This document shows positions 19,240-24,402 of a DNA stretch of 64,000 nt, piece after piece. Positions within the stretch are counted from its first letter, which is position 1. Every line of letters begins with the position of its first letter. Source of the DNA: Psychrobacter sp. NG254 (lineage in GTDB: Bacteria > Pseudomonadota > Gammaproteobacteria > Pseudomonadales > Moraxellaceae); assembly GCF_015277735.1 (NCBI RefSeq), contig NZ_JADHDA010000005.1, forward strand, positions 248,001 to 312,000. Direction: 5' to 3'. A program made the position numbers and the translations under genes. A model generated the notes under the pieces. The model saw nothing but the letters and a program-made list of their open reading frames with translations, had not been told where the DNA came from and did not search any database.

Positions 19240-19269
19240 GTAGGTTGGGTGGAGCTTGTGACACCCAAC
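19240..19269 (+). repeat. REP palindrome, copy 1
   Basis: GTAGG head followed by a palindrome (GTTGGGTG and CACCCAAC around a 10-base loop), 23 bases after the transposase stop. Its reverse complement matches copy 2 in 29 of 30 positions. Confidence 0.85.
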
Positions 19270-19292
19270 TTTTACTTTAAAAAAGAATACCC

Positions 19293-19799
19293 TCATCCGC
19301 CCCAATTGATAGGAAGCAAACCATCCGTTACAAATCGGTGGAATGATGAATATTGCCAGTCCTTAACCTGTTCAACATACTCATGTTTAACAGGATTCAT
19401 ATGAATATAATCAATATGTGCTCGATAGTCTGATTCATCGCGAATCCAATGCTCCCAAAATCGACGTTGCCAAATACCACGCTCACTTTTTTTAAGTCTA
19501 CTACTCGAAATAGATTCTGTTTTGGCAATGTTATAAGAAAAGTAGTATTTAATGAGTTTTATTCGTTTAGAGAAGTCTGCATCATTATTTGGCATAGTAC
19601 ATAACATATGCAAGTGGTCTGGCAAGATAACAATGGCATCAATGCAGAAGGGGTGTTTTTGTTTAACGAGTTTGAAGGCGCGTCTAAGTGTTGCAATTTC
19701 TTTGATTAACAAATCGCTAGACCTATCAGCTAGGTTGATAGTGAAAAAGTAGGTTGCTCCTTTTTGATAGTGCCTTCGATACTGCATGCTATTCTGCAA
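19293..19799 (-). CDS. REP-associated tyrosine transposase (RAYT), IS200-like Y1 fold
   Basis: A 168-residue single-strand DNA nickase of the HUH Y1 family. The metal-binding HxH is in ILPDHLHMLCTMP, and the catalytic Tyr lies in YRAHIDYIHMNPVKH, the RAYT-type signature. WQRRFWEHWIRD and DWQYSSFHRFV are further RAYT hallmarks. The length is normal and there are no frameshifts, so it may be active. Unlike IS200 elements, it is not enclosed by ends of its own. It lies between two inverted copies of the same palindrome, 33 bases upstream and 23 bases downstream. Confidence 0.92.
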   Translation of the reverse strand: MQNSMQYRRHYQKGATYFFTINLADRSSDLLIKEIATLRRAFKLVKQKHPFCIDAIVILPDHLHMLCTMPNNDADFSKRIKLIKYYFSYNIAKTESISSSRLKKSERGIWQRRFWEHWIRDESDYRAHIDYIHMNPVKHEYVEQVKDWQYSSFHRFVTDGLLPINWGG

Positions 19800-19831
19800 A
19801 TTATAACTAATAGCTGATATTACTTAATTTT

Positions 19832-19861
19832 GTTGGGTGTCGCAAGCTCCACCCAACCTAC
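19832..19861 (-). repeat. REP palindrome, copy 2
   Basis: Inverted copy of the 19240 REP with one mismatch in 30 bases, located just upstream of the transposase start. The GTAGG head is on the minus strand. Confidence 0.85.
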
Positions 19862-19889
19862 GGATTGTAGGTGATTCCGCGTTTAAATT

Positions 19890-19919
19890 GTAGGTTGGTG
19901 TCGAAGGATGAGACCCAAC
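19890..19919 (+). repeat. REP palindrome, copy 3
   Basis: A GTAGGTTGG head, then a diverged loop and GACCCAAC. Same orientation as copy 1. It forms a divergent-arm pair with copy 4, like a BIME. Confidence 0.75.
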
Positions 19920-19945
19920 GAGTTGGTTTTGATGAATATGAGACA

Positions 19946-19974
19946 GTTGGGTTTCCTTTGTCAACCCAACCTAC
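19946..19974 (-). repeat. REP palindrome, copy 4
   Basis: GTTGGGTT and AACCCAAC arms ending in CCTAC, oriented like copy 2. Copies 2, 3 and 4 are 28 and 26 bases apart. Confidence 0.75.
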
Positions 19975-20003: not shown

Positions 20004-20711
20004 TTATTCGGATGTAAAAGTTTTTGATTGACTGTCAAGCTTTTCATTGTCGGGGTCTAATATCGAATATGCTGTAGAAGTGACAACTGCTAAAAAAGCA
20101 ATGCATAAAACTATTAAAGAGTATTTTTTTGCTTTTTGATAATTTGGTTCACCTTCTTTCACTCGATTCCACTCGTGTTTTAGCAAAGGTTTTGACGCTT
20201 CTCTTAAGTCATCACATGATTCAATTACACTGTCCCATTTCCCTGTTAAATAAAGTTGGCGAGTACGCTTTAGTTCTGACAAGAATTTTTAGTTAATTTC
20301 ATTACCATTCGTGTTGACTTCCTTATCGTTAATTCTAAAAATTATATCGTTATATGATTCGTTCATTTTTGAATAAATATCCTCAATATCACGAGTCATA
20401 TTAAACTTGTCTTTTTTCTCTTCAGTTTGTCCAGACCGATGCTTATATAACATAGATATATAACAAAGAGATGAGACATAACTAGATATTGAATTACGCA
20501 ACGAATTAATCCACTCTTGTCTGAACTCAGAGACTTTATTTTCTTTAGATACTATTAGACTTGTATACGAAAAGAATCCAGCAATTATTGCGCTTATAAT
20601 AATAAACGAATTCTTTGTAAGTATTTCTTCCAATGAAATCTCCCATTTAGTAATAGATAAGTATTCTATTGTCAGATATTTACCTAAAGTCAAATCTAAA
20701 TCATAGAACAT
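20004..20711 (-). pseudogene. Membrane protein gene interrupted by an in-frame TAA
   Basis: The bases encode two open frames of 140 and 92 codons in the same reading frame, separated only by one TAA (20289-20291). The second frame has no ATG, only a TTG two codons later. Joined, they give about 235 residues: an N-terminal membrane helix (FIIISAIIAGFFSYTSLIV), then KVSEFRQEWINSLRNSISSYVSS, a helical region, KPLLKHEWNRVKEGEPNYQK, and a second membrane helix (SLIVLCIAFLAVVTSTAY). From memory this order of segments matches a widespread family of uncharacterised two-helix proteins. The stop therefore splits one gene. It is AT-rich and sits in the REP patch, consistent with transfer and decay. Readthrough is the alternative. 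Confidence 0.78.
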
Positions 20712-20843
20712 GATGAAGGAAGTGTTTTTGTCATGAATATATCTGATTTTTTGCTAGGCTGAGCAGCTTTGAGTAGATTAGTTTATCAGGGATCCACAAA
20801 TATTTTCTCATATTAAAAAAGTATTTGTATTGATTGTTGTCTA

Positions 20844-20877
20844 TAAAAAAGGCCACTCCCTAAAGAGTAGCCTTTTA
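20844..20877 (-). terminator. Terminator of the small lipoprotein gene
   Basis: GGCTACTC and GAGTGGCC (minus strand) pair with one G-T wobble, followed by six T residues. It is nearly identical to the uvrA terminator 600 bases away. Confidence 0.85.
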
Positions 20878-20902
20878 TCATCAATCATCTAAAAATTTCT
20901 AG

Positions 20903-21178
20903 TTATTGCGGACGGCCTTGACCATGTCCTTCAGGTTTTTTATACCCTTTTGCAGTCATACAGGCTTCTAGTTTTTTCATATCACTTTGGCTTGGACGAC
21001 TCTCTTTAGACATTTTCACGCCAGCTCGTTGAGCACAATCATCCATGGCTTGTTTCATATCAGCGGACATCGCAGGTCTTTGATGATTGCGATCGCTTGT
21101 TCCATTTGATGTGCCGCTTGATGCGCAGGCGCTAACGCCAACAGTAGATGCCAAGATAATGAACAGTAGTTTTTTCAT
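20903..21178 (-). CDS. Small lipoprotein with two conserved-looking cysteines
   Basis: A 91-residue protein. The signal ends in VSAC, a lipobox. The mature part has a short Ser/Asn-rich stretch, then AMDDCAQRAGVKM and KKLEACMTAKGYKKP. The spacing suggests a disulfide, and the overall layout recalls small PsiF-like periplasmic proteins, but no firm family is named. It ends in a Gly/Gln/Arg tail. It is framed by two almost identical terminators, so it is probably a single-gene unit. Confidence 0.7.
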   Translation of the reverse strand: MKKLLFIILASTVGVSACASSGTSNGTSDRNHQRPAMSADMKQAMDDCAQRAGVKMSKESRPSQSDMKKLEACMTAKGYKKPEGHGQGRPQ

Positions 21179-21495
21179 AAAAAGTCCTTAAAGGTTTTAG
21201 GGTTGGTATAAGGGTTGGCAGTGTCAATTTGTACGTGCTATCACTTGCTACAAGGTTGTTAACCAGTTATTTCTATATCGTATGCGCCTACGCATGATAT
21301 CTAGCCCCTTAAATATTAATACATTTAATGTTTAAATATATTTAATAAATATTAAGAAAAGTAACGCAACGCGATATAAGTCTTGATATATATCAATCAA
21401 GACCTACAGTGTGCAGGCTAGACAATGCCTTATTCCACCCAATAAAAAAGGCCACCCTATGAAGAGTGGCCTTTTATCAATCATGACTAACGGTA
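21179..21495. other. Intergenic region between the small lipoprotein and uvrA
   Basis: An AT-rich 317-base gap with no gene. It holds the lipoprotein promoter region, an inverted repeat at 21380-21403 (GTCTTGAT and ATCAAGAC around ATATATCA) and the uvrA terminator. The stretch 21315-21360 is almost all A and T. Confidence 0.5.
21444..21475 (-). terminator. uvrA terminator
   Basis: The stem GGCCAC/GTGGCC has a T run on the minus strand just after the uvrA stop codon. Confidence 0.88.
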
Positions 21496-24402
21496 TTAGC
21501 TGACTTCTTTCATGCCTTGCTCTAGCATTGGCTTTAAGAATATGCCCGTGTAGGATTCTTTGACTTCGGCTACTTGTTCAGGCGTGCCTTCAGCGATGAT
21601 TAATCCGCCACCTTTACCGCCTTCAGGGCCCAGATCAATTACCCAATCCGCCGTTTTGATGACATCCAAGTTATGCTCGATGACCACGATAGTATTACCT
21701 TTATCACGTAGGGCATGCAAGATGTTGAGCAGCTTATCGATATCATGGAAATGCAAACCAGTGGTTGGCTCATCCAAGATATAGAGCGTCTGCCCTGTAT
21801 CACGTTTGGCAAGCTCACGCGCCAGTTTGACACGTTGCGCTTCACCACCTGATAGCGTTGGCGCAGACTGACCCAAACGAATATAACCAAGACCCACATC
21901 CATCAAGGCTTGCAGACGACGATAAATCGCTGGAATCGCTGAGAAGAACTCAGTGGCATCTTCAACGGTCATATCGAGCACATCAGCAATGCTCTTGCCT
22001 TTATAGTGAATCTCTAAAGTCTCGCGGTTGTAGCGTTTGCCTTCACAGGTATCACACGGTACATACATATCAGGCAAGAAATGCATTTCAACCTTGATGA
22101 GACCATCACCTTGGCACATCTCGCAGCGTCCGCCTTTTACGTTGAAGCTAAAGCGACCCGGCTTATAACCACGGGCACGCGCTTCTTGCGTCTGGGCAAA
22201 CATCTCACGCACAGGGGTAAACACACCTGTATAAGTCGCAGGGTTTGAGCGCGGCGTACGACCAATTGGGCTTTGATCGATATCGACCATTTTGTCTAGA
22301 TGCTCAAGACCGCTGATGCTCTCAAACTTATCGGCAATCAGGGTGGAGGCATTGTTTAGCTGAGTCGCGGCTAATGGCATAAGGGTACGGTTAATCAAAG
22401 TTGATTTGCCTGAACCTGAGACACCCGTGATACAAGTCATGATACCAACAGGAATGGTCAAATCCACATCGTGCAAGTTATTGCCTGATGCGCCTTTTAG
22501 CTCAATCGTCATTGGGACTTTCTTAGGTTTGGCCTTACCTGTGACTTCGACGTCCATAGTCTTGGCAGTATGACGAACTTTTGGAATCTCGATTCTTTTC
22601 TTACCAGACATATATTGTCCAGTCAGCGATTCTTTGTTTGCCATGATGTCATCGACCGTGCCCTGAGCGATGACATGACCGCCGTGTACACCGGCACCGA
22701 TACCGATATCAATCACGTGATCCGCTTGGCGAATCGCATCTTCATCATGCTCAACGACCAGTACTGTATTACCTAAGTCACGCAAACGCGTTAGGGTTTT
22801 CAGTAGGCGATCGTTATCACGCTGATGCAGACCAATAGATGGCTCATCAAGTACGTACATCACGCCCATCAGACCAGCACCGATTTGGCTGGCCAGACGA
22901 ATACGCTGCGCTTCACCGCCCGATAGTGTCTCGGCGGAGCGAGCGAGTGTTAAATAATCAAGCCCGACGCTCACAAGGAAGTTTAAGCGCTCATTAATCT
23001 CTTTAAAGATTTTTTCCGCGACTTCACCTTTGTGACCGCCAATCTTTAGGGTTTTATAATAGTCAGCAGCATCACCGATAGAGAGCTTGACGATTTGAGC
23101 GATGGTTTGATCATCGACACGGACGTTGCGCGAGATTTCATTCAGACGCGCGCCATCACAGACGTTACAAGTGGTATCAGCCAGATATTTAGCTAACTCG
23201 TCACGCACAAGGTTACTTTGCGTCTTAGCATAACGGCGCTCTAAATAAGGCAATACGCCTTCAAACGGTATGGTCTTATTGGTCTTGCGACCGCGCTCAT
23301 CGGTAAAGTTAAAGGTGAGCTTTTCTTTACCAGAGCCTTGCATAATGAGGTCTTGCTGCTCTTTAGACAGATCCTGCCACGGCGCATCCATATCGATTTT
23401 AAAATGCTTACAAACAGTGCTGAGCAAACCGAAATAATACGCATGGCGTTTGTCCCAACCATTGATAGCGCCTTGATTAAGCGATTTCTCATGATGGGTA
23501 ATCAGCTTTTCAGCGGCAAAGTATTGGCGTTTACCGAGACCATCACAGCTTGGGCATGCGCCATATGGGTTGTTAAAACTGAACATACGTGGCTCAAGCT
23601 CAGGCACCGCACGATCACAGACAGGGCATGAGTGCTTGGCTGACATGACTTGGTTGGCATCACCGCCTTCTTTTGGATTGCCATCCATAAAGTGTAGCGT
23701 GACCAGCCCTTGACCCAAACGTAACGCTGTCTCTAAACTCTCTGCGACACGGTTGCCCAAATCATCACGAACTTTAAAGCGATCGACCACCACTTCGATG
23801 GTGTGCTTTTTCTTCTTATCTAGCGTTGGTAGCTCGTCAGTGTCATAGACGTCACCATCGACGCGCACACGGACAAACCCTTGACCGATGAGCTGCTCAA
23901 GCAAAACGGTATGCTCACCTTTACGCTCACGAATGACTGGTGCCAAAATCATAATCTTAGTGTCGTCTGGCAATGCCATGACTTGATCGACCATCTCAGT
24001 GACTGACTGTGCGACCATTGGCTCGCCATGCTCAGGGCAAAACGGCGTACCAATGCGTGCATAGAGCAGACGCAAATAGTCATAAATTTCGGTAATCGTA
24101 CCGACGGTCGAGCGAGGGTTATGGTTGGTGGACTTTTGCTCGATAGCAATCGCAGGGGATAGACCCTCGATACTATCAACGTCAGGTTTCTCCATCTGTG
24201 AGAGGAACTGACGCGCATAAGCGGACAAGCTCTCGACATAACGGCGTTGCCCTTCGGCATACAGCGTGTCAAATGCCAATGAAGATTTACCAGAGCCTGA
24301 TAGCCCAGTGATGACCACGAATTTATCTCGTGGAATGTCTATGTCGACGTTTTTTAGATTGTGTGTACGTGCGCCGCGTATTGCGATATGGTCATGTGCC
24401 AT
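21496..24402 (-). CDS. uvrA: Excinuclease ABC subunit A
   Basis: A 968-residue damage-recognition ATPase of nucleotide excision repair, about 25 residues longer than the Escherichia coli protein. The first ATPase shows [20 protein letters not shown] and a split signature [16 protein letters not shown]. The second shows [15 protein letters not shown] and [17 protein letters not shown]. Zinc modules are visible as [28 protein letters not shown], and CEMCQGDG with [10 protein letters not shown]. It is on the minus strand with its own terminator. A 0.77 kb gap and two genes separate it from ssb, which is often its direct neighbour in other gamma-proteobacteria. Confidence 0.98.

Follow-up and report, generated by a model that had tools for sequence, protein, structure and literature searches.

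Structure of the locus

The locus described here lies in a 64,000-base stretch of the Psychrobacter sp. NG254 genome, called the window in this paper (C29:248001-312000 of a 3.33 Mb genome in 33 contigs, genome code G000). It holds one gene for a tyrosine transposase associated with repetitive extragenic palindromes (REPs), and REPs lie on both sides of this gene. Such a gene is called a REP-associated tyrosine transposase (RAYT) or TnpA-REP gene. Judged by the gene motifs and the flanking hairpins, the locus is a REPtron, meaning a RAYT with its cognate REPs. The parts are as follows, in window coordinates.

19240-19269, plus strand: REP copy 1, downstream of the RAYT gene, with GTAG head, 8-bp stem and 10-base loop
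19293-19787, minus strand: RAYT (TnpA-REP) gene, 164 amino acids, DHLH and YIHMNP motifs intact
19832-19861, minus strand: REP copy 2, upstream of the RAYT gene, inverted relative to copy 1
19890-19919, plus strand: REP copy 3, diverged type, half of a REPIN-like inverted pair
19946-19974, minus strand: REP copy 4, diverged type, other half of the copy-3/copy-4 pair
21496-24402: uvrA, near end about 1.5 kb from REP copy 4

Copies 1 and 2 are alike in 29 of 30 positions in inverted orientation. They lie inside a 35-base inverted repeat, the arms of which are 91% complementary and 562 bases apart, and their DNA folds at -7.8 kcal/mol (z -3.9 and -3.6). The RAYT gene starts at an ATG within a longer open reading frame (ORF) beginning at TTG. 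The locus is flanked by DUF503 and ThrE genes on one side and by three short ORFs and then uvrA on the other. The original prediction, which was made from the letters alone, had described an intact HxH and tyrosine motif, two inverted REPs with a common head around the gene, two diverged copies in opposite orientation beside copy 2, and uvrA as a neighbour; all of these were recovered in our analysis.

Family of the transposase

The window protein matches Y1_Tnp and is the sole Y1_Tnp match in the genome. It scored 193.9 bits against the NCBIfam model REP_Tyr_transpos (NF047646, cut-off 80, E 1e-57) and stayed below the cut-off of transpos_IS200 (NF033573) with 22.4 and 27.8 of 55 bits. The only solved structure matched at E up to 0.001 was E. 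coli TnpA-REP (PDB 4er8, E 1e-44). The two proteins are alignable over nearly the full length, and the HUH, W-Q, W-E-H and Y---NP positions are the same.

Papers given by PubMed Central (PMC) number are cited here from excerpts of their text. Class 2 transposases (RAYT or TnpA-REP) are defined by a HUH motif together with a Y---NP tyrosine motif (PMC6006769), which correspond to DHLH and YIHMNP in the window protein. From these two motifs and its length, the RAYT is assigned to subclass 2.2; the E. coli REPtron is placed in the same subclass (PMC6006769) and in group 2 of another scheme (PMC8266576). Inverted GT[AG]G-headed palindromes round the gene, which are also expected of a RAYT, are present, and as in the E. 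coli REPtron the gene lies between inverted GTAG-headed REPs with a REP pair in addition. The usual trait of many dispersed cognate REPs is absent, with two flanking-type and two copy-3-type REPs in 3.33 Mb. A RAYT gene is also expected to be immobile and in one copy, which holds in the window lineage; in the sister group described below, G044 has 2 copies and G028 has 3, and the sites differ.

The arrangement of one Y1 transposase gene between hairpins is also found in IS200/IS605 elements. However, the tyrosine motif of these insertion sequences (IS) is Y---Q and not Y---NP, and the window unit differs from them also in having long inverted repeats at both ends.

The nearest named relatives of the window RAYT are from Psychrobacter, and remoter ones, about 40-51% identical over longer matches, are from cyanobacteria, Thiotrichaceae and others. 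Inverted GTAG-headed repeats of at least 17 bases were present on both sides of the gene in 8 of 14 distant relatives inspected. In the open-licence PMC literature we found no paper on a REP-associated tyrosine transposase in Psychrobacter.

REP numbers in the genome and the genus

A genus set of 105 genomes, one genome per species, was searched with two sequences, the 30-base flanking REP and the copy-3-type REP, allowing up to 3 mismatches; the census counts these two sequences and not every palindrome. In the window genome the flanking REP has two occurrences, both at the locus, and the copy-3-type REP also has two, one at the locus and one at C1:477370. The sequence GTAGGTTGGGT occurs 5 times, 3 of them at the locus, and its reversed control 3 times. 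Of the two occurrences outside the locus, one has no palindrome and the other is part of a second inverted pair, made up like copies 3 and 4 (C1:477370-477441), which is the single recurrence of this pair in the genome. The original prediction expected REPs with the same head elsewhere in the genome, and there are nearly none. A REP-spreading system in the window genome is unsupported, and the genome scan leaves the locus close to a lone insertion, qualified by the one recurrence of the diverged pair.

Across the genus the flanking REP is present in 39 of 105 genomes, with a maximum of 11 per genome (G006), and the copy-3-type REP in 40 of 105, with a maximum of 9 (G032). The reversed controls of both patterns gave no match in the same 105 genomes, so the REPs at the locus are not due to chance. 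These low numbers differ from the hundreds given in the REPIN literature and from the hundreds of REPs per class in Pseudomonas and Stenotrophomonas (Nunvar and colleagues, PMC3686654), and also from the dispersed REP population of the E. coli REPtron (PMC8266576). REPtrons lacking REP families have been described, which means that dispersed REPs are usual but not required (PMC3733652), and the window RAYT with its local REPs and almost no others is like these. Copies 3 and 4 form an inverted REP doublet, as described for REPINs (PMC3116915), and 8 of 14 solo REPs inspected in other species have an inverted partner nearby, giving doublets of about 78-93 bases. A much larger count, 2,260 intergenic hairpins in Psychrobacter arcticus (PMC12306157), uses another definition and has no bearing on these REPs.

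Further REPs, meaning REPs of both types more than 1.5 kb from a RAYT, were tallied by hand from the census. The average is 0.33 for the nine species of the window lineage and 0.85 for the 86 species that lack this RAYT clade (Mann-Whitney p 0.36), the latter average also counting remnants at the uvrA site. The eight species of the sister group described below average 2.9 (p 0.001), and there are 3 further REPs in G056 and 8 in G076. The proposal that REP copy number follows the presence of this transposase among relatives was thus not borne out in the window lineage and found some support in the sister group.

Some other observations were made during the census. Genome G006 has the most flanking REPs in the genus (11 places) and is without the window RAYT clade; it holds two distant RAYTs whose REPs are different ones. 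A sequence of about 90 bases at G000:C1:477168-477254 (L001:1238-1324) and L127:8643-8740 recurs in many genomes of the genus at 77-90% identity to the query, and in at least 7 genomes it lies about 115-205 bases from a copy-3-type REP. A tRNA hot spot beside metR or the second inverted pair was considered and dropped: ARAGORN reported none in L001, L127, L129 and L291. An Rfam scan of L001 and L204 gave no match.

The lineage at the uvrA site

Relatives of the RAYT occur in 42 of 105 genomes; an identity of 73% or more over 130 or more residues is reached by 22 copies from 19 genomes. Eleven genomes have the unit in the ThrE/DUF503-uvrA interval, nine of the window lineage together with G056 and G076. 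The eight other window-lineage RAYTs are 90-96% identical to that of the window, and those of G056 and G076 are more distant. Both sides of the interval were seen in 9 of the 11 genomes (in G095 and G066 as the stretch adjoining uvrA, not uvrA itself); for G018 and G051 the view was limited to the ThrE/DUF503 side. The interval also carries other, variable genes. DUF503 is partial in G009 and lies elsewhere in G076, and the DUF503 search found none in G029 and G051.

The RAYT gene is intact in all nine window-lineage species and in G056. The ratio of nonsynonymous to synonymous divergence (dN/dS) was calculated for the nine genes of the window lineage together with a single intact gene from each of G044, G081, G028 and G097. 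Within the window lineage it has a mean of 0.16 and a largest value of 0.37 over 36 pairs, at synonymous divergence up to 0.33. By this comparison the window-lineage RAYT is under purifying selection. The earlier suggestion that the locus may be active therefore stands in part: the gene is kept intact and selected, and there is no sign of REP spreading. An in-frame TAG was flagged in many orthologues and was taken as a stop codon that shortly precedes the true ATG, from which the flagged window-lineage genes read 164 amino acids.

The hairpins are mostly conserved as well. The stem of copy 1 is fully paired in 9 of 9 window-lineage genomes and that of copy 2 in 6 of 9, the defects being one mispair in G055 and a one-base insertion in G018 and G051.

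Several relatives have traces of the unit at the uvrA site. A single REP with the loop of copy 2 is present there in G012 and G071, and one with the loop of copy 1 in G064; none of the three has a RAYT at the site. In all three the single REP lies between the outer flank of copy 1 and that of copy 2, which is the product expected from deletion between directly repeated stem arms. Pieces of the RAYT remain in G025, G085 and G096, and a REP alone in G089. From the fused REPs and the remnants we read the uvrA site as an old site that would have lost its RAYT repeatedly. At the DUF503 site, relatives without the RAYT have other variable sequence.

Other features of this region were noted. When G009 is compared with G029 and G051, the difference just outside copy 1 consists of two segments, 258 and 238 bases long, that are unrelated. 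In the window, about 38 bases adjoining the uvrA end occur as a direct repeat (87%; 20841-20892 and 21442-21479), which encloses an ORF of 91 amino acids (20903-21178); G055 has a single copy of this repeat without the stretch in between. At 20004-20711 there are two neighbouring minus-strand ORFs of 92 and 140 amino acids, possibly one broken gene, and a Pfam scan of the two gave no match.

A sister group of probably roaming units

Units of a sister group lie away from the uvrA site, in G044 (2 copies), G028 (3), G081, G078, G077, G096, G097 and G030. Nine of these 11 copies were used for an edge profile, which excluded the two G028 copies that have an IS110 element at a REP. BLAST among the 300-base flanks of the nine sites gave no match at E 1e-3, and mean pairwise identity falls to 0.17-0.44 more than 5 bases outside the REPs. 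Directly outside the upstream REP, AGCNC is present in 9 of 9 copies (N is A in four, C in four and G in one). Outside the other REP the bases are GTGCT in four copies, CTACT in two, and GTACT, TAACA and AGCGC in one each. At the corresponding places the window genome has AATCC and AAATT.

The two copies of G044 are 4.25 kb apart and identical over 626 bases (620 plus end bases), and the sole difference within 630 bases is the N of AGCNC. Near-identical copies at unrelated sites, a trait of IS200/IS605 elements, are thus seen in G044 and not in the window genome. Between species, identity is 95.7% for the units of G044 and G078 and 72.7% for their metR genes, and for G044 and G077 the values are 94.4% and 72.5%; a unit identity so far above that of metR speaks for transfer between species. 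Between G077 and G078 the units are 93.6% and metR 95.9% identical. In a tree of 25 RAYT sequences the uvrA-site genes grouped at 68/97 and most others fell together, and a single clade for the roaming group was not rejected by the approximately unbiased test (p-AU 0.36).

The sister-group genomes show some further rearrangements. In G028 (L073:650-6948) an IS110-family element is inserted in the REP ends of the RAYT unit; one copy is flanked on one side and the other on both sides, in inverted orientation. Symmetric solo REPs with extended heads occur in G077, AGCAC...ATGCT and AGCAC...GTGCT (L082:625-658 and L083:456-489), the form that losing a complete unit would leave. A copy-3-type REP in G097 (L130:12292-12416) comes directly after a left unit end that still carries some bases from the beginning of the RAYT, and by eye this looks like a REP pair born by internal deletion of a unit.

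Toxin-immunity modules beside the sister-group units

Several roaming units adjoin fragments of contact-dependent toxin genes, which read outward from the REP and in some cases in frame through it. In G081 and G077 the Pfam matches next to the units were WHH nuclease tails and SMI1_KNR4 proteins, and in G044, G028 and G097 they were DUF637 or PT-VENN fragments of CdiA. The scanned ORFs beside the units of G078, G096 and G030 had no toxin domain, and G096 had an unnamed tail.

PT-VENN was searched in 12 hand-picked genomes and found in 6; no match was found in G081, G077, G078, G096, the window genome and G006. G044, G028 and G097 have 6 matches together, none of them more than 1.5 kb away from a unit or part unit, and the single match of G030 lies 1.2 kb from a REP. 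A chance product of 9e-9 for this proximity was calculated post hoc from hand-typed counts, covers only the 4 of 8 sister-group genomes having PT-VENN, and is not a p-value. G030 also has a row of three REPs in one orientation (L248:5663, 9174 and 10903) between ORFs read as successive toxin-immunity modules of a CdiA-like locus; two of them show matched stem changes, GGCTGGGT/ACCCAGC and GGTTGGGT/ACCCAAC.

The toxin link fails as a general rule. PT-VENN matches in G076 and G056 are far from any REP of both censuses, the window genome and G006 have none, and the REPs of G006 sit between ORFs unlike toxin-immunity modules. Where the link is seen, the roaming units would either move into toxin arrays and travel along or help to shuffle them. 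The open-licence PMC literature yielded nothing joining a RAYT with contact-dependent growth inhibition, and in excerpts of two open-licence papers on orphan contact-dependent toxin-immunity modules REP appears only in a reference or a typing method.

This association speaks for a passive explanation of the sister group, which we think possible but somewhat short of an even chance. Units would have been inserted once or a few times in orphan toxin-immunity modules and then carried by homologous recombination, with their flanks eroded to REPs by deletions. The PT-VENN matches of G044, G028 and G097, the sole match of G030 with REPs on its sides, and the WHH, SMI1_KNR4 and DUF637 proteins adjoining units all fit with it. 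It is known that cdiA-CT/cdiI modules are exchanged and that IS elements disrupted orphan modules in several instances (PMC3150448). By eye, G030 lacks about 2.1 kb that is present at the site of the G096 unit, more than the unit; this difference holds a lipoprotein-like ORF, a putative immunity gene, a toxin tail and the unit, whose outer REP end is near one edge. One of the two excluded G028 copies and G097 have a lipoprotein-like gene fragment beside the REP in common. However, recombination of modules should leave common flanks, and the flanks of the nine sites are unmatched while the unit ends are sharp on both sides. The units of G030 and G078, without a toxin domain in the neighbouring ORFs scanned, and G096 with only its unnamed tail are also not easily explained by it.

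Interpretation

We consider it quite probable that the window holds a REPtron fixed between uvrA and DUF503/ThrE and inherited vertically, and that the related units of the sister lineage can move as a whole. By analogy with E. coli TnpA-REP, the protein would recognise GTAG and the stem when it binds a REP hairpin on single-stranded DNA, and like others of its family it would nick near the REP with its tyrosine. The sister lineage suggests that what can move is the entire REP-RAYT-REP unit plus about 5 bases at either end, as one element. The window lineage does not have end bases of the sister type, so its self-mobility has probably been lost, while it would have retained an intact and selected protein.

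A number of observations weigh against this picture, beyond the G096 difference and the fragment common to G028 and G097. For the fixed site, a stop interrupts the RAYT of G076, and it is conceivable that the fused REPs are older than the RAYT. Tree support for two groups is weak, and the placement of G096 and G076 is not settled. Searches at DUF503, metR and PaaI (the last in 30 hand-picked genomes of the 105) gave no clean empty site, and with one genome per species movement within a species is invisible. The units of G077, G078 and G030 are all downstream of metR, at different distances; on one side, the alignment of copy a of G044 with the G081 copy continues for about 25 bases more; and one duplicated 1820-base segment, with the IS110 element, includes two of the three copies of G028. 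The RAYT is broken by a stop in 3 of 8 sister-group species (G077, G096 and G030), and in G028 the reading frame is only 143 amino acids long in two of the three copies. The nicking step is one that we infer from relatives.

A stronger version goes further. The sister units, about 630 bases with ends AGCNC-GTAGG...CCTAC-GTGCT, would be self-mobile and a living form of the autonomous REP/REPIN ancestor; they would move among toxin-immunity modules and may help to shuffle them, and the window would be an immobilised, domesticated branch. We offer this only tentatively and find it rather doubtful.

It is about equally unlikely, in our view, that the RAYT is domesticated in such a way that the REPs serve the gene itself, as binding sites of its own protein or as hairpins stabilising the mRNA, and not mobility. 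The single copy, the fixed site, the purifying selection and the nearly exclusively local REPs agree with it, as does the statement that RAYTs behave like housekeeping genes (PMC8266576), but in the sister group these hairpins also form the borders of the roaming units. We think it improbable that the locus is dying out, as the remains of a single old insertion that has no function left. For this reading, there is no population of window REPs, 94 of 104 other genomes show no unit at the uvrA site, and relatives keep remnants there or, in G076, a broken gene. Against it, nine of nine window-lineage genes are intact and constrained at the divergence given above, with hairpins mostly conserved.

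Comparison with the published picture

For tnpAREP genes, evidence of mobility is reported as lacking (PMC8266576), and RAYTs are described as apparently unable to self-mobilize (PMC3116915), according to the excerpts of both papers. In the papers cited here, mobility of the gene is not reported for the E. coli REPtron, whereas the sister lineage suggests it. The sister-group units look self-propagated, unlike the REPtrons without a REP family (PMC3733652). It means that the window locus is an ordinary REPtron almost without other REPs, and the departure from the published picture is the roaming lineage.

The window locus by itself is ordinary. Its interest is that a single RAYT clade would have, within one genus, both a branch held in place and under selection and a branch that roams, the two being set apart by a few end bases. 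If this is true, the step from mobile element to domesticated gene becomes testable within one genus. If the link with the toxin modules is causal, REPs would have a part in the reshuffling of these modules.
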